DNA from: Sulfodiicoccus acidiphilus
Lineage (GTDB): Archaea > Thermoproteota > Thermoprotei_A > Sulfolobales > Sulfolobaceae
Assembly: GCF_003967175.1 (NCBI RefSeq)
Contig: NZ_AP018553.1
Location: 1,364,001-1,428,000, forward strand
Direction: 5' to 3'
DNA length: 64,000 bases
In this document: positions 26,761 to 38,689 of the stretch, one piece after another
How the letters are laid out: the number at the start of each line of letters is the position of its first letter
How positions within the stretch are numbered: the stretch's first letter is position 1
Notes under the pieces: model-generated
The model's input: the letters and a program-made list of their open reading frames with translations, nothing else
Told to the model about the DNA's origin: nothing
Databases searched by the model: none
Translations under genes and position numbers: made by a program

Positions 26761-26920
26761 CCATCTTCCGAAAACGCGGATGCGGTCAGATCGGCGCGGC
26801 TTCGGCATTGGGGTTAGGCCGGCCTGTTAAGTCGCACCCGGATCCCCCACGTTCCGTATTACAAGACCCAACCGAAGGCCAGGTGAGCTGTCGCAGGCCC
26901 GAGGAAACCCTCACCCTCTG
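26761..26920. ncRNA. Candidate structured RNA, unassigned
   Basis: A GC-rich block of about 150 bp directly after a very AT-rich 55-bp stretch (26706-26760) in an intergenic gap. It has long-range pairing potential, such as GGCCTG 26821-26826 with CAGGCC 26893-26898 and CTTCGG near 26800 with CCGAAG near 26871. The segment GGCCTGTTAAGTCGC recalls the GUUAAG region of archaeal 5S rRNA, but the 5S loop C consensus is absent. No coding frame. Strand is not settled; its distal edge touches the stop of the segB-like gene. Confidence 0.35.
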
Positions 26921-27372
26921 AAGTCTACGTACTTCCTGGCCACCCTCTCAGCGGCCTCGAACAAGTCGCCGTACATCTGCCTCAGTCCCATTTCCATGGC
27001 TTCCTTGGCCGTTCGACTAACCTTGAATCCAGGTACGGTGGAGTAGAGGTACTGTAGGACGAGGTAAGCGGGATAGCTCCAGACTCCCACCTTGGGTTCC
27101 TTCGATGTGAACGACGCCATCAACTTCTCTACCTCCTCCCAGTTCCTAGAGTCCGTACCCTTCACTCTACTCTCCTCGTCATGGGGTATGTCCTCTTCCT
27201 TCAGTCTAGAGTCCACTCCCTCGACCTTTCTTGTCTCCGCTCTGGGCCCCAGCCTCTCTCCTCCAGGGTCTTGAGTCGTCTCCCCGTTCTTGACTCCGCC
27301 CTCCGCTCCCTGGGCTCTAGAGTCGCCCTCTCTATGCTCCCTCCTCTTCAGTAGGAAGTCTATCTCGCTCAA
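26911..27372 (-). CDS. SegB-like DNA-binding partition protein (candidate)
   Basis: A 153-aa protein encoded directly after the ParA gene with a 4-bp overlap. Residues 1-90 are polar and charged, low in hydrophobics, and probably disordered. The C-terminal 60 residues (KVGVWSYPAYLVLQYLYSTVPGFKVSRTAKEAMEMGL) look like a ribbon-helix-helix domain of the kind in the Sulfolobus SegB partner of SegA. Three codon triplets GAC TCT AGA or GACTCTAGG in the disordered part coincide with the repeated DNA motif described separately. Role inferred: centromere binding in chromosome segregation. Confidence 0.6.
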   Translation of the reverse strand: MSEIDFLLKRREHREGDSRAQGAEGGVKNGETTQDPGGERLGPRAETRKVEGVDSRLKEEDIPHDEESRVKGTDSRNWEEVEKLMASFTSKEPKVGVWSYPAYLVLQYLYSTVPGFKVSRTAKEAMEMGLRQMYGDLFEAAERVARKYVDFRG

Positions 27373-28038
27373 CCAGTGATCACCTTGGCCAGGGCGTTGT
27401 AGTGTTGCGTGAGCCTTCCGTTCCTGAACCTGAACTCATCGTACCTCACGGCGGGGACGCCGAGTCTGGAGGCGTCGGTGAAGACCCTAGACTGCGGTAT
27501 TGCGACGTCAACGAACTCGATGGAGGAGGCACCCTCCTTCAGCGGCTTCTTAGAGCCGTTAGTGAAGGCGAGCGCCCTTTTGTTCAACCCCTTTAATCTA
27601 GAGTCTAGGTTCTTGAGGACCTCCATGGTGAGCGGCTGTGGTGTGACGGGCACCACGACCTTGTCCGCGGCCACCGTCGCTGAGAGCGACAGAGTGCCGA
27701 GGTTAGGCGGCGTGTCCACCACCAGTACGTCGAAACCCTCAGCTACTTTCCTCACGGAAGCCACGGTGGATTCCACGTCCCCCTCCAGCTCCCTTCTGAG
27801 GAGTCCCAAGTGGGCCGGGAAGACCTCAACGTCGAATATGTTCACGCTCTTCCCACCTATTTCCCTCTCCACCTTCTCTCTCCTCATTCCGAAGGAGACA
27901 GTGGTACCTCCCTCCGGATCCAGGTCCAAGAGGCCCACGTTTCTAGTACGGGCGAGTACGTAAGCTAGGTTGACAGAGGTGGTGGTCTTACCCACACCTC
28001 CCTTCTGGTTTACCACCGTGACTATCATGTCTAGAGTC
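27205..28038. repeat. Repeated TCTAGAGTC motif in and before segA/segB
   Basis: Exact copies at 27205-27213, 27316-27324, 27597-27605 and 28030-28038, with a one-mismatch copy CCTAGAGTC at 27145-27153, all in the same orientation. I found one other exact copy in the whole window, in opposite orientation, at 38664-38672. Four of these lie in coding DNA, always read as Asp-Ser-Arg. One abuts the segA start codon. Candidate SegB-binding (parS-like) sites. Confidence 0.6.
27369..28028 (-). CDS. ParA/SegA-family partition ATPase
   Basis: A 219-aa Walker-type ATPase. Deviant Walker A KGGVGKTTT at residues 9-17 with the signature Lys, Walker A' DLDPEGG, and Walker B LVVDTPPNLG. Size and gene order (ATPase, then small DNA-binding protein) match the SegAB segregation system of Sulfolobales. 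ATG 28028 is directly preceded on the non-coding side by TCTAGAGTC (28030-28038), a possible operator overlapping the transcription start, so autoregulation is likely. Confidence 0.85.
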   Translation of the reverse strand: MIVTVVNQKGGVGKTTTSVNLAYVLARTRNVGLLDLDPEGGTTVSFGMRREKVEREIGGKSVNIFDVEVFPAHLGLLRRELEGDVESTVASVRKVAEGFDVLVVDTPPNLGTLSLSATVAADKVVVPVTPQPLTMEVLKNLDSRLKGLNKRALAFTNGSKKPLKEGASSIEFVDVAIPQSRVFTDASRLGVPAVRYDEFRFRNGRLTQHYNALAKVITG

Positions 28039-28482
28039 TCCTCTGCAGAGCCACAAAAGGCAGGCCCCGCGGTGTTACCCCAGCCTTAACAGTTTCGGTC
28101 GAGTTTCGAAGGTTTGCGGGGAAATTTGGATTCGACGAACGAGGAGCCTAAGTTGTGGGGAAAGGGTGGTCGACGTCGCTGTAGGAACTTGACGATCGGC
28201 GCGGCCTCCCCGTAGAGAGATCCTGGGCGACGTCGGGCTCGAGGATGAGGAGGTGACTTCCCAGAGGTGGACTCTTTCGTTCGCTCTTTTAGATTTTCTA
28301 CGATGGACCAATCCACGACCTAGTTTTTACAGAAGAAGGGGACATTACAGTCCTACCTGGCCTACTCGTCCCAGGATCCCACGGGATGACTGTCTAGAGT
28401 TAACTAGACTTGCCACTTCGGGAAGGTCTCTAGCAGCTAAACTGTCCTCGGAAGGCGACTTTCTTCAACCATTTTACGACTT
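28039..28482. other. Intergenic, 444 bp, upstream of segA
   Basis: No coding frame with family resemblance. It holds an inverted repeat GTCTAG-6-CTAGAC at 28392-28409 that is related to the TCTAGAGTC motif, and a second loosely similar TCTCTAGCAG at about 28426. This may be a partition-related or regulatory region for segA. Confidence 0.4.
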
Positions 28483-29472
28483 CTAGTCGAGGAGGTCAGC
28501 CGGGTGGATCACCTTGAACTTCCTCCCGAGACTGAGGGAACACGACGGGTTGGAGGAGACGACCGTCTCAATCCCCGTCCTTCCGACCTTCCTGGCCTTC
28601 TCCTCGAAGATCGCGTCGGCTAGCTCTGGCTGAAATAGGAAGTAGCTCCCACCAGCTCCACACTCGAACGAGGGGTCGTCCATTTCGACCACCTGCACTC
28701 CCATCCTCTTCAACATGGCCCTGGTGTAACCAGAGATTCCCACCACCTTGGCGTGGCAGGGCTCATGGAGGGTGACCTTTGCGTCGACCCTCGGGAGCTC
28801 CAGGCCGTTCCTTTCCACGAATTCGGCGAAGTCGTACACTTCCACCCCCTTCCACCTCTCCTTCATGTGAGCCGCACAGTTCGCCGAGAGCACCACAACC
28901 TTCCTACCCTTCAACTTGGACGACCACGCGGTCGCAATTTCTTCCGCCCTGTCCCTCTCCCCCTCTCCCATATGTGGTAGGCCGCAACAACCGTTCACCA
29001 CCTCGACTTTGAACCACCTCCTCAGGTACTTAAGGGCCTTCTCTACCGTCTGCCTCAAAACCACCGCCGTGAGGCATCCTGGGAAGAGCACTACTTCAGC
29101 GCTCTGGTCTCTGTACTCTAGAGGCTCCCTGACCTCCTTCACGAACTCCCTCAGCCTCGCCGACGTCTCTCCATTTCCCTTCATGACCAGTCTGAGGGCT
29201 GACGCCAAGGCCCTGGGGTTCTCCAGGAGTCTGTGCATTCCAGCAGTGGAGGCGTCGGCCCTCCTGTGGGCGGATATAAGTTCGCCATAGGGGACGCCGC
29301 TGGGACACGCCTCCTCACACCTCCTGCAGAAGACGCAGGTCCCTAGGCCTGAACTCTCTAACCCCAACCTCATAGCCATGATCCTGCCTCTAGGGGAATG
29401 AACTTCCGACCTAGTGACTACGTAAGTGGGGCAGGCCTCGAGACAGAACCCGCAGTGTACGCACTCGTTCAC
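28483..29472 (-). CDS. Glycolate oxidase-type Fe-S subunit (GlcF-like)
   Basis: A 329-aa protein that passes electrons from the flavin subunit encoded just upstream. Two 4Fe-4S motifs: CVHCGFCLEACP at residues 4-15 and CVFCRRCEEACP at about 46-57. Two CCG domains follow with FPGCLTAV...NGCCGLPH and HEPCHA...ECGAGGS. GTG 29472 directly follows the glcD-like stop. It probably forms a 2-hydroxyacid dehydrogenase (glycolate or D-lactate) with the neighbouring glcD and glcE products. Confidence 0.85.
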   Translation of the reverse strand: MNECVHCGFCLEACPTYVVTRSEVHSPRGRIMAMRLGLESSGLGTCVFCRRCEEACPSGVPYGELISAHRRADASTAGMHRLLENPRALASALRLVMKGNGETSARLREFVKEVREPLEYRDQSAEVVLFPGCLTAVVLRQTVEKALKYLRRWFKVEVVNGCCGLPHMGEGERDRAEEIATAWSSKLKGRKVVVLSANCAAHMKERWKGVEVYDFAEFVERNGLELPRVDAKVTLHEPCHAKVVGISGYTRAMLKRMGVQVVEMDDPSFECGAGGSYFLFQPELADAIFEEKARKVGRTGIETVVSSNPSCSLSLGRKFKVIHPADLLD

Positions 29473-30864
29473 TCAGTCCCCCTCCCATAATGTCCTCAGC
29501 GGGCCGACGGGCTGACACCCTTCGAGCCTGAGCATCTTGCACCTGTTCAACAGGTGTCTGGGATCGAAGGCGTCCTTAACTCTCCTCATAGCGAGGAGGT
29601 CCTCGTCCGTGTAGTAGTAGCCCATGAAGCCCACCTTCTCTAGTCCTATTCCGTGTTCCCCACTTGGCACTCCGCCGCTCTCTACGGCCACCCTGACTAT
29701 CTCCCTGCCTGCTCTGAGGGCCTTCTCGAGCCCCCGTGGGTCGGAGGGATCGTATGGGACTAGGGGATGGAGGTTCCCGTCCCCAGCGTGGAAGACGTTG
29801 GCTACCTTCAGCCCGTATCGCCTGGAGATCTTCGATATTTCCTCGAGCACGTCTGGGAGCTTGGTGACCAGTATGTTGCTGTCCAGTGTGAGGTAAGCGG
29901 GCGCTACGACTCCCATGGCCGGGAAGGCTCCCTTCCTTCCCCTCCATAACCTATCCGCTTCGGCCTGCTCCTTGGCCAAGGTGACCTTACCTCCGGCAGA
30001 CTGGAAGGCCATGGTAGTCAACTCTACCTCCTCCACCACCTGAGGGCCGTAACCATCTAGCTCCACGAGTACTATGGCCTCGGCCTCGGGATACCCTGAC
30101 CTGAACTTGCTCCTCTCCACGGCCTCTACGGAGTTCCTGTCCATCATCTCCATGGCAGCCGGTACCACCCCAGAGTTGAAGGTGTTCACCACGGCCTCCC
30201 CCGCGTTACGTAGGGACTCGAAGGCTCCCATCAAGGTGACTGACGCGTCTGGCCTGGGGGTGAGCCTTAGCCTAGCCCTCAGAACTACTCCTAACGTTCC
30301 CTCCGCCCCCACGAATATCCCAGCGTCGTCCATGACGCTCCTCCCCCCCGCATCCACCAACTGTCCGTCCGGCAACAGCACCCTCAATCCCACCACGTGA
30401 TTGAAAGTCGGGCCGTACTTCACCACGTGGATCCCCCCAGAGTCGTGGGAAACGTTCCCCCCTATGGATGAGACCGAATAGCTTGAGGGGTCTGGAGCGT
30501 AGAAGAGGTGAGGAGGAGCGTTCTTTGTCACCATCACGTTGGCTATTCCCGGCCCCACTGTGACCTCCAGCCCTTCCCAGTCGAGGATCCTGTTTAGTCT
30601 CGCCATCGACACCACGACTTCTCCGTTGACTGGGATGGACGCACCGCTCAGGCTGGTCCCAGTACCCCTCACTAAAAAGGGTTCTCCCCGCTTCAGAAGC
30701 GTCCTCACAGTCTTTACTGCCTGCTCCTCGTTTCCGGGCAGAACTACGGCCCGCGGGTTACCTCCCACCACAGTGAACCCGTCGACGGAGTAGAGTCTAG
30801 CCTCTTCCCCAGTCACCACCCAACTATCTCCCACTAACCCCCTCAACTCTTCCAGAAGGGACAC
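29473..30864 (-). CDS. FAD-linked 2-hydroxyacid dehydrogenase subunit (GlcD-like)
   Basis: A 463-aa VAO/PCMH-family flavoprotein. FAD-binding segments FLVRGTGTSLSGASIP at about residues 63-78 and SSIGGNVSHDSGG at about 130-142, the cap domain with GDGNLHP (substrate/metal His motif, HAGDGNLHP) at about 358-366, and the C-terminal SGEHGIGLEK. All match GlcD and D-lactate dehydrogenases. Divergent from the glcE-like gene, with 36 bp between starts, so a single control region probably serves the three-gene cluster. Confidence 0.88.
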   Translation of the reverse strand: MSLLEELRGLVGDSWVVTGEEARLYSVDGFTVVGGNPRAVVLPGNEEQAVKTVRTLLKRGEPFLVRGTGTSLSGASIPVNGEVVVSMARLNRILDWEGLEVTVGPGIANVMVTKNAPPHLFYAPDPSSYSVSSIGGNVSHDSGGIHVVKYGPTFNHVVGLRVLLPDGQLVDAGGRSVMDDAGIFVGAEGTLGVVLRARLRLTPRPDASVTLMGAFESLRNAGEAVVNTFNSGVVPAAMEMMDRNSVEAVERSKFRSGYPEAEAIVLVELDGYGPQVVEEVELTTMAFQSAGGKVTLAKEQAEADRLWRGRKGAFPAMGVVAPAYLTLDSNILVTKLPDVLEEISKISRRYGLKVANVFHAGDGNLHPLVPYDPSDPRGLEKALRAGREIVRVAVESGGVPSGEHGIGLEKVGFMGYYYTDEDLLAMRRVKDAFDPRHLLNRCKMLRLEGCQPVGPLRTLWEGD

Positions 30865-30900
30865 GTTTCTATATTTACCCTCCCCACTTAAATAGCGTCA

Positions 30901-31961
30901 ATGGACTGGCTATCGGCCTTGGAGAGGGAGGTAAAGGTGAGTAGGGACGGTGGAACTTACGTGGCCAGGCCAGAGACCTACGAGCAGGTGAGGGAGGTGG
31001 TCAGCCTCGCCAATCGGATGGGCTTCACGTTGACCCCGGCCGGCACTAGGTCCCATACGATAGGTCCGCCTAGGAGGGCCGACGTGGTCCTCTCCACCCT
31101 CGAGTTGAGGGGGTAGTGGAGGTGAGCAGGGCCAATTCATTTATCACTGCCAAGGCGGGCACGTTGATGGAGGAGCTAGAACGTAGGCTCTCCGAGGACG
31201 AACTACTCCTGCCCTTTCCTTACAAGGGTACGTTGGGCGGGTTGGCCTCCGTCAATTCACCTGGGTACTTCTCTGCGTGGGTGGGTTTCCCGAGGAACTT
31301 CCTCCTTGGAGCCAGGCTGGTGACGGGATACGGCTCTCTAGTTCTGTCGGGGGGGCGAACCGCCAAGTTCTCCAGCGGGTACAAGATATGGAAGTCGCTC
31401 TCTGGCACCTTGGGCTGGCTCGGGATATATGTGGAACTAACCTTCAGGACCCTCCCCGAACCAGAGGAGGTGAAGGTAGGTTCCTTCTCTGGGGACTGGA
31501 GGTCCACCTTAAAGTATAGGCCCTGGGGCATACTCTACTTGGCCCACGAGAGGAAGTGGATCGGGGTGTTCGCAGGGAGCAGGAATTACGTGAGATCGGT
31601 CTCCGCACAGCTCGACCTCACTGACGAGTCGCTCCCCGAACTGGAGGCCTCGTGTCCTAGGGTTGTGGGGCTCCACGTAACGAGGGGAACGGAGGCCGAG
31701 GTACTCTCCTCTCTCTCTCCAGAGTGGGGCGTGGGCTTTGTGGGCACGGGCTACTCTAGGCTCTGCACAGAAGAGTCGGAGGAATCGCTGAGGTCCAAGG
31801 TCAAGGGGTACGTAGTGGTGGAGAGGGGAAGTGCGTCGGAGTACTGGGGTTTCTCTTCACCGGTGTTGTGTGCCCTCAAGAGGGCTCTGGATCCCCAGGG
31901 GGTCCTCTCCCCTGGAGTTTTCGACAACTGTCTGCCCCCCTCACGGGCAACGACTTATTAG
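30901..31961 (+). CDS. FAD-binding subunit (GlcE-like), split by a frameshift
   Basis: A smaller PCMH flavoprotein of the GlcE type. The N-terminal 71 residues (PETYEQVREVVSLANRMGF, PAGTRSH) are followed by a stop that disappears if one G is added to the G5 run 31109-31113. The frame then reads LRGVVEVSRANSFITAKAGT, as expected for the family, and continues through GTLGGLASVNSPGYFS and SSGYKIWKSLSGTLGWLG. Restored length is about 353 aa. ATG 30901. With glcD and glcF it completes a three-subunit glycolate oxidase-like complex. Confidence 0.8.
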
Positions 31962-32297
31962 GGGCGAAGCACAAGGTGCATTCGTGAGAACCGTGAAGCA
32001 GGTACAGTATGTATCACTTGAAGTACAAATGGACTCATCGGACGCCTTGAAGTTAGACGAGTTCCTAACCATTAGCGCGATCGAGGCGTGCGCCTAGTAT
32101 TTACGCATAGCTCAACTTATTGTCGCTTTTACTTCCAAGTACGGCATTGGAATCCCTCTCAGGTGATCGCACACCCCCAATTCGTTAAAGCCCGTAAGGG
32201 AGACACTACCCGACCTTCATCGTTCCTAGGACCTCCCTAGGAGTGGCACTGATCTCACATCGAGGACATTTAGAAGTAACAACTAAATAGAAAGTGG
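31962..32297. other. Intergenic, 336 bp
   Basis: A short frame from GTG 31984 encodes about 37 residues (KQVQYVSLEVQMDSSDALKLDEFL) and ends at TAG 32096; it may be a broken gene start, possibly of a transposase, but I cannot assign it. The rest is non-coding and leads into the mobile-element relic at 32298. Confidence 0.4.
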
Positions 32298-32632
32298 TAC
32301 AAAAACTGGGGTTGAGGGAGGGTAAAGTCTCCTCGGGGATGGAACAGATGGCAACTTATTTAAAGTTTAAATATTTCTTTTCAAAATGTCTGTCGTTGAT
32401 ACTAAAGACGCTCCTCCCCAGCTCTACTGGGGCTCAAAGGGATCGAGGGACAACCAGAATCTCCTCACTTCTCTGCAACTGAACTATAGCTCGGCGAAGA
32501 AATATCCCCTCTATTCGGACGAGGATTGTCATCTGAGCCACCTGACCGCCCCTCAAGAGATGTAGCCCCGGACCCACGGTGGGAACTACGAAACTCTTGG
32601 AGGGAGATCCTCCCAGGGTGGAGAGGAATTTG
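32298..32632 (+). mobile_element. Diverged solo TnpB-derived element, copy 3
   Basis: Follows the same order of blocks as the 345-bp elements at 24100 and 51410: TACAAAAACTGGGGTTGAGG, then GTAAAGTCTCC, a TTTAAA-rich stretch, ACGCTCCTCCCCAGCT (32410-32425), and a right end with CCCACGGTGGGAACTACGA and CTCCCAGGGTGGAGAGGAA. It is clearly older: the central hairpin and right-end stem carry several mismatches. It ends 5 bp after the rhodanese stop codon. Confidence 0.6.
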
Positions 32633-32636
32633 GACT

Positions 32637-33050
32637 CTAGGCTCTAGACCTCACGCTCTGGGAATTTAACAACTCCTTCCACACCTTAGCTCCTTCGTCG
32701 AGTCCCCTCACTACTTCGTAACCCATGTACATCCACGCCTGGAGTCCGCCTGCGAGGTAGTAGGCTCTGCGTCTGTAAAGGTGTGGCATGCCGAAGGTAG
32801 CGTAGTAGGCCCTGTTACCGTGTTCGCAGATCACGGCCACTTCCTTATCAGAGAAATAGTGCGATAGCTCCTCCAAGTAGTCCATGGGAATTAGAACCGA
32901 ACCTGGAACGTGGTGCGCTACGTACTCCTGTGGAGTCCTTATGTCCAACATGAGGACCTTTCCTTGCTTCCACAACCTCCTCACGTCCGAGGGGTAAGAA
33001 TACACGATGTGGTTGTAGTATGGCGTGTACGTGTTCTCCACTACCATCAA
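32637..33050 (-). CDS. Rhodanese-domain sulfurtransferase
   Basis: A 137-aa single rhodanese domain. DIRTPQEYVAHHVPGSVLIP is the CH2A/CH2B region; the active loop CEHGNRA at about residues 82-88 has the catalytic Cys. It would carry persulfide from thiosulfate or another donor to an acceptor; sulfur trafficking is prominent in Sulfolobales. ATG 33050. Its stop codon is almost touched by the mobile element at 32298-32632. Confidence 0.85.
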   Translation of the reverse strand: MMVVENTYTPYYNHIVYSYPSDVRRLWKQGKVLMLDIRTPQEYVAHHVPGSVLIPMDYLEELSHYFSDKEVAVICEHGNRAYYATFGMPHLYRRRAYYLAGGLQAWMYMGYEVVRGLDEGAKVWKELLNSQSVRSRA

Positions 33051-33153
33051 TTGAGGTCAGGGAACAAGCTCCTGGAGCCCTAAATTCGCTATTTATTAAT
33101 TGACGAGGACACTATTCCCGTGGAGATTATCTCTATTTTCGACTTTAATAATG

Positions 33154-33693
33154 CTACATCGTTTTGACGAAGACCAGCCCGTAGTGGTACGGGCCCACCT
33201 CGAACTCCCTCTCCAACTTCAGATCCCTGAAGTGTCTGAGGTAGTCTTCTTTGGACATCCTGATGGCCTGAGGCGGCCCCACGGGAGAGTCCCTCCTCCA
33301 GTCCACCACGATCACCTTTCCCCCAGACCTCAGGATCCTGAGCACCTCCTTGTATGCGGCCTCCCTGTCCATGTCGTGGAAGGAGTTAGCTAGGAATACT
33401 ACGTCCACAGAGGCGGAAGGGATGGACGTCCTCGAGGAATCCTCGTTTAGTGCTACAACCTTGGGGGACAAGTCGCTCACCATGTGGACGAACTTAGCAC
33501 TCCTGTCCACACAGTAAAGGGTAGAGGCGTATTTCACTAGGTACCTGCAGTAGTACCCTGGGCCGCAGCCCAACTCTGCTATCACCTCCCCTCCTCGAAG
33601 CAGGGAGGGGAGGAAGAGCTCCGGATCCTCGAACTTCCTCCTCTCCGGGCTCAGCAAGATCTTGGCCATCTCCTCTTCGTTGTGTCTATGCAT
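33154..33693 (-). CDS. SAM-dependent methyltransferase, class I
   Basis: A 179-aa methyltransferase domain. Motif I AELGCGPGYYCRYL at about residues 39-52, acidic strand-2 end CVDRSAKF, motif VVFLANSFHDM and the RILRSGGKVIVVDW post-motif. Resembles UbiE/Methyltransf_11 enzymes acting on small molecules or metalloid species. It lies 4 bp after the radical SAM gene, so the two may modify the same substrate. Confidence 0.8.
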   Translation of the reverse strand: MHRHNEEEMAKILLSPERRKFEDPELFLPSLLRGGEVIAELGCGPGYYCRYLVKYASTLYCVDRSAKFVHMVSDLSPKVVALNEDSSRTSIPSASVDVVFLANSFHDMDREAAYKEVLRILRSGGKVIVVDWRRDSPVGPPQAIRMSKEDYLRHFRDLKLEREFEVGPYHYGLVFVKTM

Positions 33694-33697
33694 CCTC

Positions 33698-34743
33698 TCA
33701 CCTAACGACCGAGCCCACCACTCTCACTGGTTCCTGAACCACGTTGAACAGGTAGTCGAAGGCGTTGCTCAGGATCCTTTCCTTCACCATGGAGAGGTTC
33801 CTCCAATCGAATAGGGAAGGCTCGAGATAACACGTGAGGCCGCACCTGTTACAGGTCTCGTATTTCGACCAATCGTACGAGTTCCAGAGTTGCTCGATGT
33901 CGACTTCCCACGCTCTGGCCTCTCCCCTGTACTCGTTGAGTACGTAGCACGGACTCACTATCCTACCCTGTGGGTCCACGTTTATAGTGAGCCACGGCTT
34001 GCAGGTCCAAGGCTTTCCACCGTACCAAGAGGAGAGGATCGCCTCGAAGTACTCCTTCGAGTTAACTATGGGGGCTCCCTCGAGCTTCATCCTTAGCAGT
34101 GCCGTGAGGACTTCCCTCAACCTCTCCTTCTCGGGCGACATCTTCTCGGCAGTGGAGTAGTCGTAGGCGACCTGGAAGCTCACGCTCACGCCCAGTTCCT
34201 CCACCAGTCTCACCATTTCAGTGGCCTGGTGGAGGTTGTCCGAGCCCAACGTGACGTTGACGGTCGTCTCGACGTAGTCCTTGGCCATCCTTATTCCCTC
34301 CACCGTCTTCTTGAACGCCCCTTCCACCCCCCTTATTTTGTCGTGCACCTCCCCTATCCCGTCGAGGGAAACGAAGAGGTTCTCTAGGTACCTCCTGACT
34401 TCAGGGAACCTTTCCTTCAACATGACGCCGTTAGTCACTAGGGAGGTGTGAAACCTTTCGTGGGACTCCCTCAAGACTTCTGGAAGGTCCCTCCTGAGGA
34501 AGGGCTCTCCCCCTCGAACCCCATGAAGAGCACTCCTGCGTCGGCTAGGGCGTTCATCATCCTGACTTCCTCCTGGAGGGAGAGGAGCTTCTCGTCCTTC
34601 CTCCTCCAGAACGGACACATCCTGCACTTCAGGTTGCACGAATAGAGCAACTTGTGGCCGGCGATGAGGGGGAGCTTCCTTCCCCTAGCCTCCCTCATTC
34701 CCCGAGCTATTCCCCTGAGCAAGACCGGCCTGAAAGTGGCCAT
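33698..34743 (-). CDS. Radical SAM/SPASM-like protein, split by a frameshift
   Basis: The N-terminal frame holds the 4Fe-4S motif CNLKCRMC at about residues 36-43 and runs to ADAGVLFMGFEG. The rest lies in a second frame (GEPFLRRDLPEVL, TSLVTNGVML, LFVSLDGIGEVHDKIRG, and a C-terminal cysteine cluster CKPW, SPCYV, CNRCGLTCY). One more G in the coding G5 run (34509-34513) joins them as GFEGGEPFLRRD, the classic GGEP motif of the family. Restored length is about 348 aa. ATG 34743 is 25 bp from TTTTTATC. MoaA-like SPASM proteins modify peptides or cofactors; the target is unknown. Confidence 0.82.
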
Positions 34744-35243
34744 ACCACGAATATTGCTATCGTAGATAAAAACTGTCGAGTAAACTCGAGTCGATTTGTC
34801 TTCTCTAAAGCTAGAAGACGTCGCTCAATCGCGGTAAGTTAGACTCAAAGTGCGCTAAGGAGGACTAGGGACCACCTCAAGAGACTATTCTCGTCGTCGA
34901 ATCGACTTTTCCCGAACCTTTGTAGTGATCCGGAGGAACTTCGATGGGGCGAGCAAATTCCGCCGAGGTTACGTCTCCTCCACCGCGAAGAGGTTCTGCT
35001 TCGACTCGCTGGTAGGGATACGCTAATGGGGTTCCTATCATCGTAGGCGGCGAAGTGGTCGTGGGAAAGGATCCCTTCGTAGACGAAATAGGAGATAACC
35101 CATTGCCCCAATCGAGCCCTAGGTAGGACTCCACCACGTACTTCGTAAATGAGTCCGTTCCCGCATGGAGACAAGGTACTCCAACTTACAGGCGTTGGTT
35201 TGAACTAACCAAGCTAATTTAAACGGTCACTCTAGTTTGGCCT
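34744..35243. other. Intergenic, 500 bp, possible decayed gene on the minus strand
   Basis: Carries the divergent promoters of the radical SAM gene (about 34768) and the acyl-CoA dehydrogenase gene (TAATTTAAAC, 35214-35223). In between, minus-strand frames at 34877-35174 include VESYLGLDWGNG and, in another frame, FVYEGILSHDHFAAYDD. The two overlap and shift, as in a decayed gene; an IS110-type transposase start is a weak possibility. Nothing firm. Confidence 0.35.
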
Positions 35244-36431
35244 ATGACCTTACCGTTTTCTCCTCAGGACTTCAAGGTGGAGTTGAGGGAGGAGCACGAG
35301 TTACTCAGGCAGTCGGTCAGGGAACTGTGCGAGAGCAGGGTCAGGCCCTACGTGGAAAAGGGGGAGAGGGAGATGGCGATACCGCCGGAGGTAAGGAAGG
35401 CGGTAGTGGACGCTGGCCTAATGGGACTGAACATTAAGCCCGATTACGGGGGACAGGGAGGGGACCTGTTGTCTCAGGCCATAGTGACGGAGGAAATCAG
35501 TCGCGTCTGGCCGTCGCTCTCGACCCACGTCTTCATTCACTGGCTCTTCAGTACCACCCTTCAGCTCTTCGCCTCCGAGAGGCTTCGCTCCGAGCACTTG
35601 CCCGAGGTCGCCTCCGGGAGGGCGGTGGTGGCCTTCGCCAACACCGAGCCCTCCGGGGGCTCCGACGTCGCGGGGATGAGGACCACCGCCAGGAAGGTCG
35701 GGTCGCACTACGTGATAAACGGGAGGAAGACCTTCGTCACGAACGGGGGGATTGCGGACAGGCTCCTCGTCACAGCCAGGACCTCCCAGGGGGAGAGGAG
35801 GTGGATGGGGATATCCATGTTCCTCGCCTCGAGGGAGCACGGTTTCAAGGTGGAGGGGAGGATAGAGACTTCAGGCGTCAGGGCGTCAAACACGGCCCAG
35901 CTCCTCTTCGAGGACGTGCGGGTCCCGGAGGGGAACCTGGTGGGGGAGGAGGGGAACGGCTTCAAGCAGACCATGCTCGCGTTCGACTACAGCAGGGTCT
36001 CGGTGGCCGCCCAGGGGGTGGGCCTCGCCCAGGCGGCCCTGGAGGCCTCCCTCTCCTACTCCTCCCAGAGGGAGGCCTTCGGCCAGCCCGTGGCCTCCTT
36101 CCAGATGGTCCAGGAGAGGTTGGCCGACGCGATGGCGGAGGTGGCCGCGGCGAGGCTGCTCACCTACTTCGCCGCCTCCCTCCTCGACAGGGGGAACCTC
36201 CAGGACGGGGTGGTGGCGGCGTCCATGGCGAAGTTCTACGCCACGGAGGTCGCGGAGAGGGCGGCGAGCAGGGCGATCGAGGTGCACGGGGGGTACGGGG
36301 TCTCCACGCCGGTGGAGAGGTTGCTGAGGGACTCCCAGATCCTGAAGACCTACGAGGGAACCAACATGATTCAGAGGTTGACAGTAGTTAGGCAAGTTAT
36401 GAAGAGCAAGTTCGGGGTCAATGTCAGGTGA
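35244..36431 (+). CDS. Acyl-CoA dehydrogenase
   Basis: A 395-aa FAD flavoprotein that oxidises acyl-CoA to enoyl-CoA. The N-terminal helical domain starts with REEHELLRQSVRELCE; the middle domain has FANTEPSGGSDVAGMRT (FAD and substrate contacts); the C-terminal domain has YSSQREAFGQPVASFQ, the HGGYG motif and KTYEGTNMIQ, in which Glu of the YEGT segment is the usual catalytic base. ATG 35244 is 26 bp after the TATA box. The stop overlaps the molybdenum hydroxylase gene by 4 bp. From 35820 to 36340 codon use turns markedly GC-rich compared with either side. Confidence 0.92.
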   Translation: MTLPFSPQDFKVELREEHELLRQSVRELCESRVRPYVEKGEREMAIPPEVRKAVVDAGLMGLNIKPDYGGQGGDLLSQAIVTEEISRVWPSLSTHVFIHWLFSTTLQLFASERLRSEHLPEVASGRAVVAFANTEPSGGSDVAGMRTTARKVGSHYVINGRKTFVTNGGIADRLLVTARTSQGERRWMGISMFLASREHGFKVEGRIETSGVRASNTAQLLFEDVRVPEGNLVGEEGNGFKQTMLAFDYSRVSVAAQGVGLAQAALEASLSYSSQREAFGQPVASFQMVQERLADAMAEVAAARLLTYFAASLLDRGNLQDGVVAASMAKFYATEVAERAASRAIEVHGGYGVSTPVERLLRDSQILKTYEGTNMIQRLTVVRQVMKSKFGVNVR

Positions 36432-38664
36432 AGTACATAGGATCTCCCGTCAGGCGAGTTGAGGACCCGAGGTTCGTAAAGGGGAGGGGAAGGTACGTCG
36501 ACGACCTATGGCTACCTGGTATGCTCCACCTCGCGGTCCTCAGGTCTCCCTACGCCAGAGCGAGGTTCAAGGTCTTCACCGACGCGATAACTGGAGAACA
36601 CGCCAAGGACTTCGTATCGCCTAACTTCTTCGCTCCCCTGTACCCCAAGGAGAGGGTTCTTCCACTTGGTCAGGCATCGTATTACGGCGAACCAGTCGCC
36701 CTGGTGTTGGGGAGGGACCCCTACGAGGCTAGGGACGCTCTAGACGATCTGGAGGTAGAGTGGGATCCCCTCCCTCCGGTCCTAGACCCGGAGGAGGCAC
36801 TAAACGCGGATCCCATACACCCCGACGTACCTAACCTAGTGTATCGCGACCAGTTCTTCTACGGGGAGTTCAGGGAAGGTGACAAGCTGGAGAAGAGCTT
36901 CAGGTACAACAGACAATCTCCGTCTCCCATCGAACCTAACGCCGTGGTCGCAGACTACGACCCGCACGGCGGCCTCACCGTGTACGCCAACACACAGGTC
37001 CCTCAAGTTTTCAGGACGGCCTTGGCGGTAACCTTCGGGTTACCGAGGTCTAGGGTCACCTTGAAGGTGCCAGACTCGGGCGGGGGGTTCGGAGGGAAGA
37101 TCTTCATAAAACCCATTCTCCTAGCAACTTTGGCCTCCATGGTGTCTGGGAGACCGGTGAAGTACGTGGAGACTAGGACTGAACACCTCGTCGCCGCAGT
37201 CCACGGACCCGATAGGAGGTACAGGGCAGTACTTCACCACAGTGGAGAGAAGGTGTTGGGTTTGGAGGTGGAGCTACTAGAGGACTTCGGGGCCTACCTC
37301 CACACCTATCAACCCCTGCCTGTCCTTAGGCAGATATACCACCTCGCGGGCGCCTACGACGTGAAGTTCGTCTCGCTGCGGGTGAAGGGAGTCCTCACTA
37401 ACAAGGCTCCAACAGGTCCCTACAGGGGCCTTGGGATCCCTCCGGCCGTCCTAGTGCTGGAGAACCTTGTGAGCTCCTTGGCTAGAAAGGTGGGCGTCGA
37501 TCAATTCCAAGTCAGGGAGTCCAACTTAATCAGGAGGACCCCCTTCAACTCCATCACCGGTGCCGTCTACGACAGCGGGGACTACCTGGAGTCCCTCAGG
37601 AGGTTGGCCCGGGAGGTGGATCGCGGAAGGAGGGGATTGGGAGTGGCCTTCGCTCTGGAACCGGGCTCCTCTCTGGCCTTTCAGACGTTAGTCGTCAAAT
37701 CCCCTAGGACCCCCTACTACGAGGGTGCCTACGTGAAGATGGACAGTAGCGGCGAGGTGGTGGTGACCATGAGTACCAACTCCATGGGCACCGGCCACGA
37801 GACAGCAATTTCGCAAGTCGTAGCGGACACCCTGGGAGTAGACATGGACTCCGTCTTGGTCAGACTAGGCGACTCCGACGGCCCTCCTGGTACGGGTTTC
37901 TACGGAAGTAGGTTCTCTGTTGTGTCCATATCCGCCGTCTACGTAGCCGCCCTCAAGCTGAGGGAGAGGATGCGCACAGTGGCGTCGAAGCTATTTAACG
38001 TCGAGGCCTCTCAGGTGGAGTTCAGGGACGGGACGGTTTACGTGGGTTCAAGGAAGCTCTCGACCGTGAGGGAACTGGCTAACGCGGCGTACAACAGGTC
38101 CCACTTCCTGGGACTTGAGGAGGTTGGCCTTGAGGCTTCGGCGGTGATCAATTCCCCCAACGTTAACGTGGCTGACGAGTCCAGGAGAGTCAACTTCTCC
38201 TCCACATACGGCGTGAACGCCCACGCGGTCCTCGTGGACGTGGACGAGGACACTGGAGAGGTGAGGATCCTCAAGTACGTGGTGTTGAGCGACTGTGGAA
38301 ACATGATCAACCCGGCCCTGGTGGACGGACAACTGACGGGGGGAACTGTGATGGGCCTGGGAGCAGCCCTATCTGAGAAGGTGACATACGACGGTGAGGG
38401 AATTCCAATGGGGACCAATTTCTCTGACTACAGGATACCCCGGGCCGCGGAGGTACCGAGACTTTCCCTTATTCACCAGGTGAGTCCCTCTCCCTTCACT
38501 CCCCTAGGAACCAAGGGAGTAGCCGAGGGAGGGCAACCGTCCCACCAGCGGCCCTCATTAATGCCGTGGAGGATGCGTTGGGGACGAGCTTCGACAGAGT
38601 GGAGATTCCCCTCACCCGCGAACAGGTCCTGGCCCTGCTGGAGAAGTCGAAGTCCAGACGGTAG
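36428..38664 (+). CDS. Molybdenum hydroxylase large subunit (CoxL/aldehyde oxidase family), 3' frameshift
   Basis: A 745-aa molybdopterin-binding subunit. Seen: RVEDPRFVKGRGRYVDD start, PDSGGGFGGK (Mo-site loop), APTGPYRGLGIP, and near the end GTKGVAEGG with the catalytic-type Glu. The CO dehydrogenase active-site loop with Cys is absent, so an aldehyde or heterocycle oxidase is more likely. After VAEGG the frame is lost at G3 38531-38533; one added G restores TVPPAALINAVEDALG and a natural end at TAG 38662-38664, in place of the shifted end at 38671. The partner medium (FAD) and small (2Fe-2S) subunits are not adjacent. Confidence 0.85.
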
Positions 38665-38689
38665 ACTCTAGAGGTTTTCAGGACGGAGT

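Follow-up and report, generated by a model that had tools for sequence, protein, structure and literature searches.

Very probably, the 9-bp word TCTAGAGTC, which recurs in and around two adjoining genes of the 64,000-nucleotide stretch analysed here (the window), is the core of sites for the centromere-binding protein SegB, and SegB binds phased runs of a 7-bp unit, TCTAGAS, that cluster at segAB, with SegA acting on the complex. The identity of the genes, the clustering of the sites, their 7-bp phasing and the synonymous constraint in segA are all supported by sequence comparison. The centromere-like nature of such sites is mostly known already; what appears new beyond the published motif is the 7-bp-phased tracts, the constrained blocks of segA and the tracts in the segB linker.

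The segAB genes and their probable SegB sites

By match to solved structures, we identify the genes at 27369–28028 and 26911–27372, both on the minus strand, as segA and segB. The first encodes a ParA-type Walker ATPase of 219 aa, with matches to the AAA_31/ParA Pfam families and to structure 7dut (deposited as SOJ protein; phmmer E 2.9e-85), which we take to be S. solfataricus SegA. Its product is 53–65% identical to full-length relatives of the family. segB lies directly downstream, overlapping segA by 4 bp, and encodes a ribbon-helix-helix (RHH) centromere-binding protein of 153 aa that matched SegB 7duv (phmmer E 2e-27) and no Pfam family. Residues 12–71 of SegB form a linker with AF2 pLDDT below 50, and the C-terminal helices are predicted confidently. 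The segC gene of S. solfataricus (a 165-aa ORF) was not found in the genome by a search run without a positive control. The relatives of this genome include named Sulfolobaceae, for example Metallosphaera and Aramenus.

The SegB motif obtained by ChIP-seq is TCTAGA-S-TCTAGA (TCTAGASTCTAGA), a 13-bp palindrome (Kabli et al. 2025, PMC12284271), and TCTAGAGTC covers 9 of its 13 bp. SegB binding, and segregation defects on its loss, are documented for S. solfataricus and S. acidocaldarius; the ChIP-seq sites cluster at segAB, some of them within segAB itself in S. acidocaldarius, and the peaks are narrow, without long-range spreading (PMC12284271). Since the word is part of this motif, and since segA and segB match solved structures, the proposal of the preliminary description that these are centromere-like sites for the segB product is probably right; published site 1, before segA, is conserved as well.

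We confirm the four exact copies of TCTAGAGTC first described (plus strand, at 27205, 27316, 27597 and 28030) and, at 27145, the near copy CCTAGAGTC; a further near copy, TCTTGAGTC at 27269, had been overlooked. Within genes the word is indeed read GAC TCT AGA/AGG, that is, Asp-Ser-Arg. The single orientation of the copies stands as an observation but not as evidence for binding: the copies point one way because all share the GAC TCT AGA reading, and with a palindromic motif orientation means little for binding. Elsewhere the window holds two exact copies, at 38664 and 44097 (both on the minus strand), rather than the one reported.

Local clustering of the word is borne out, and its rarity is not. 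No other 9-mer of the window has four copies on one strand within 900 bp, bar one local repeat near 13 kb. The single-contig genome of 2,353,189 bp, however, contains 35 exact copies (about 134 kb per copy per strand), and copies with one mismatch number 32 in the window versus 30 by chance, so that rarity across the genome is a weak argument, and we do not use it. These same two counts would fit the idea that codon bias favours the word and that its clustering is due to chance, an explanation that we consider very improbable in view of the full motif. With the consensus taken from the published paper, not fitted to these sequences, and expectations drawn from 260 kb of the same genome, sites matching at least 10 of 13 positions number 8 in 26911–28042 versus 0.23 expected (Poisson P 1.6e-10), and 14 in 26911–33050 versus 1.25 expected, the cluster extending to 33 kb of the window. 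Matches to the 13-bp consensus with one mismatch occur at only four places genome-wide, two of which are 27597–27609 and 32636–32648. Chance is further opposed by the tract counts, linker sites and synonymous excess presented below.

Phased 7-bp tracts at segAB

We scanned for five TCTAGAS units in 7-bp steps, at a threshold that gives 5 hits per 260 kb of background (about 1.2 in 64 kb). The window returned 12 hits, all within 27138–38673. In the 20–22 kb around segAB of 16 genomes, each genome has 5–18 tracts versus 0.6–0.7 expected, and the spacing is specific: among ten genera, one genome each, we counted 47 five-unit tracts at 7-bp spacing around segAB, versus 1, 5, 6, 4, 1, 3 and 16 at spacings of 5, 6, 8, 9, 10, 11 and 12 bp, respectively, the last figure most likely reflecting the 36-bp repeat of HS-7. 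These counts, too, argue against chance clustering. Outside segAB the same ten genera have 22 tracts at 7-bp spacing versus 1–5 at other spacings, and sites there have extra units at ±7 and ±14 (2.33 and 1.96 versus 1.58, sd 0.11); matches that arise by chance in remote regions of this genome show no extra units at these offsets. Most scattered 11/13 matches lack phased neighbours and look like chance, and we rejected them as true sites. Because genomes of one genus are not independent of each other, each genus was represented by a single genome in the key tests. The five-unit length, and the block positions in segA discussed below, were picked after inspection of the data, and a motif-free test agrees with them.

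The tracts around segAB span 4–7 units. Most likely, the published 13-bp palindrome represents two adjoining 7-bp units, and we infer that runs of at least four units may be the functional unit. It may be that the SegB-DNA structure reported by Yen et al. 2021 already implies an arrangement in heptads.

What we call the START tract (28029–28056, minus strand) comprises four 7-bp units, the last of which adjoins the segA ATG. Scored over ten genera, its units have means of 3.1, 4.1, 4.1 and 6.35, versus about 1.2–1.8 off phase. The tract corresponds in position to published site 1, and its offset from the ATG is the same in most relatives. It includes the exact word at 28030–28038, 1 bp upstream of the ATG (28028–28026), in agreement with the reported contact of one copy with the segA start; the motif directly upstream of the start reads AGGAGACTCTAGAC-ATG (10/13). 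The sites might, on the other hand, serve mainly in transcription control rather than as a centromere, through SegB autoregulation or by way of a different regulator (the RHH repressor aCcr1, for example). In nearly all genera the START tract lies directly against the segA ATG, and Kabli et al. 2025 (PMC12284271), who leave SegB feedback open, report that aCcr1 represses segAB. Most tracts, however, lie deep in coding sequence, kilobases away, and about 83% of the published SegB ChIP-seq sites are intragenic (PMC12284271), which makes a mainly regulatory role quite unlikely.

Three further SegB-like tracts, to which we assign no strand, lie in neighbouring genes. A five-unit hit at 29096–29130 falls in the upstream gene for an Fe-S protein (28483–29472) and includes a site at 29110–29122 (11/13). 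The tract at 32622–32670, at the 3′ end of a rhodanese-like ORF (32637–33050), has the core TCTAGGCTCTAGA at 32636–32648 (12/13). Genera g4, g5 and g9 also have tracts about 4.6–4.8 kb upstream of segA, which suggests positional conservation of this one, at about 4.6 kb. The third, again from the five-unit scan, extends across the stop codon of a gene for a CO-dehydrogenase-type large subunit (38639–38673). As a separate observation, the last ~50 codons of this ORF (36428–38671, plus strand) read as nonsense, and a neighbouring frame offers a plausible C-terminus with TAG at about 38663; there is therefore a 1-nt frameshift near 38530, either a sequencing error or real.

Evidence for DNA-level constraint in segA and the segB linker

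segA contains two tracts, both on the minus strand. Block 1 (27582–27616; +412 to +446 of the gene) has five phased units and the core site 27597–27609 (12/13); block 2 (27443–27491; +537 to +585), overlooked in the preliminary description, has about seven. As a null we recoded segA synonymously by local codon usage. Motif excess over this null across all genera peaks at +412 to +440 and +530 to +572, in 7-bp steps, and the five-unit score summed over ten genera, one genome each, exceeds all 2000 simulations at blocks 1 and 2 (z 6.0 and 8.9, respectively), which also argues against chance. Cross-genus synonymous codon identity, a measure free of the motif, peaks in the same places, at segA codons 139–149 and 180–193. 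The segA of this genome alone is borderline (p 0.07 for block 1 and 0.05 for block 2), and it is the ten genera jointly that carry the argument; block 1 is absent in Acd1 and block 2 in HS-7. The relatives thus appear, from these comparisons, to have kept 7-base runs in segA beyond the needs of the protein code.

It had been proposed that protein residues are bent to keep the DNA word. For the SegB linker this is supported, since residues vary there and the word turns up in several codon frames; SegA keeps its residues, and the additional evidence comes from synonymous codon choice. When related genomes were compared for residues kept and word lost, this pattern was not found in most genera. 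Among the exceptions, Acd1 (L036) has lost both residues and word, and g5 (L010, L013) and L034 keep the residues with the word there degraded.

The five-unit scan placed four tracts in the part of segB encoding the linker, all on the minus strand: 27288–27322, overlapping the exact word at 27316–27324; 27241–27275, with the near word TCTTGAGTC; 27191–27225, with the exact word at 27205–27213; and 27138–27172, with the near word at 27145–27153. The linker segment has four 10/13 sites, where synonymous recoding gives 0.41 (p 0.0017); all 597 background ORF pieces fall short of this site count, again contrary to chance. Linker residues gave no alignment between genera, and the core word occurs across linkers in several codon frames (read as DS, LES, RES, RV, QSQ and KSL). 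In HS-7 (L037/L061) the linker carries 13 identical 36-bp tandem repeats, each with TCTAGAGTCCACA (11/13). Long linkers without such arrays (g1, g5, g11 and M. yellowstonensis) have more copies of the word, or a stronger 7-bp periodicity, than the synonymous expectation; by the same test, the short-linker genera g4, g6 and g9 show no such excess in segB. The synonymous test is somewhat anti-conservative near segAB, where 7–16% of neighbouring ORF pieces reach p 0.05, depending on the statistic, and conservative in distant ORFs of this genome.

The 14-aa repeats of Metallosphaera SegB correspond to 42 bp, or 6 × 7 bp. Against synonymous resampling of the unit they are mostly not significant, although shuffling the codons within the unit weakens its 7-bp phasing (p 0.033 to <0.001), and we rejected them as a clear DNA array. 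They have been modelled as a beta-helix (Kabli et al., PMC12284271); for perfect repeats, AF2 reportedly returns beta-solenoids that are predicted with confidence yet unrealistic (PMC11795689).

Selection at the protein level could in principle account for both genes, if Asp-Ser-Arg and the linker repeats were kept for residue function (for example, contact with SegA, or a beta-helix) and the DNA word were a by-product. Nearly all relatives keep Leu-Asp-Ser-Arg in SegA, and the beta-helix proposal and the mostly non-significant resampling of the perfect Metallosphaera repeats point the same way. Such selection does not, however, explain the extra synonymous constraint in segA or the recurrence of the linker word in frames that encode differing residues, and the tendency of AF2 to over-predict solenoids weakens the structural argument. 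We regard this explanation as unlikely, if slightly less so than mainly regulatory sites. For the linkers we tentatively suggest a reading that we hold with some doubt: the long, fast-evolving SegB linkers (those of the window's genus, Aramenus, Acd1, HS-7 and Metallosphaera) might be kept partly as DNA, carrying an array of SegB sites, and the tandem repeats (13 × 36 bp in HS-7 and 42 bp in Metallosphaera) might be expanded centromere units rather than a beta-helix.

Relation to known partition systems

The genes and sites described here share with SegAB of the Sulfolobales (S. solfataricus and S. acidocaldarius; PMC12284271) orthologous SegA and SegB, overlapping genes, the motif, the site before segA and a cluster of sites around segAB that lie mostly within genes. 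The published system is described by a 13-bp palindrome; we find 7-bp units in longer runs, two tracts in segA under synonymous constraint and, in the segB linker, tracts that are specific to lineages. SegB binding and partition function here would be expected from these homologues.

An RHH centromere-binding protein and contiguous 7-bp repeats are also features of the parS/omega (ParB)/delta (ParA) system of pSM19035. There, parS consists of consecutive 7-bp repeats overlapping promoters, each omega dimer takes one repeat, and activation of the ParA partner requires at least four contiguous repeats (PMC9499535). SegB wraps DNA as a superhelix and has been likened in a review to omega of pSM19035. 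The pSM19035 heptad, WATCACW, is non-palindromic and belongs to a bacterial plasmid, whereas the unit here is TCTAGAS, the proteins are SegAB and the sites lie in chromosomal genes; SegB is without bacterial sequence relatives. By analogy, the tracts may work like the pSM19035 heptad centromere, but they do not belong to that family. Bacterial ParABS (Soj/Spo0J/parS) likewise combines a ParA-type ATPase, a DNA-binding partner and a site cluster near its own operon, but its ParB is a helix-turn-helix (HTH) protein and a spreading CTPase, in contrast to the RHH protein SegB with its narrow published peaks.

On the reading that we prefer, SegB (26911–27372) would occupy runs of phased TCTAGAS units, and the cluster of tracts (one before segA, two in segA, four in the segB linker and those in neighbouring genes) would load it side by side. 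SegB dimers lined up in this way may engage SegA, as omega does its partner, and the action of SegA on the SegB-DNA complex would move and fold the chromosome. These results bear on the open question of how archaea mark and move their chromosomes. The 7-bp-unit architecture, if true, links archaeal SegAB to a well-studied plasmid centromere mechanism, helps genome scans to distinguish true sites from matches due to chance, and predicts that unit number and phase set SegA activation. It would also offer a clean case of a second, DNA-level function shaping coding sequence, one accessible in S. acidocaldarius, for which deletions of segAB have already been made.

Clustering of the word near the origin, raised in the preliminary description, was not observed: the cluster lies at segAB, at 1,391 kb, and the best Cdc6/Orc gene at 86 kb. 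Two exact copies of TCTAGAGTC (90487 and 91262 of the genome contig) do occur 3.5–4.3 kb from this Cdc6/Orc gene (85927–86997), and are possible SegB sites near an origin.
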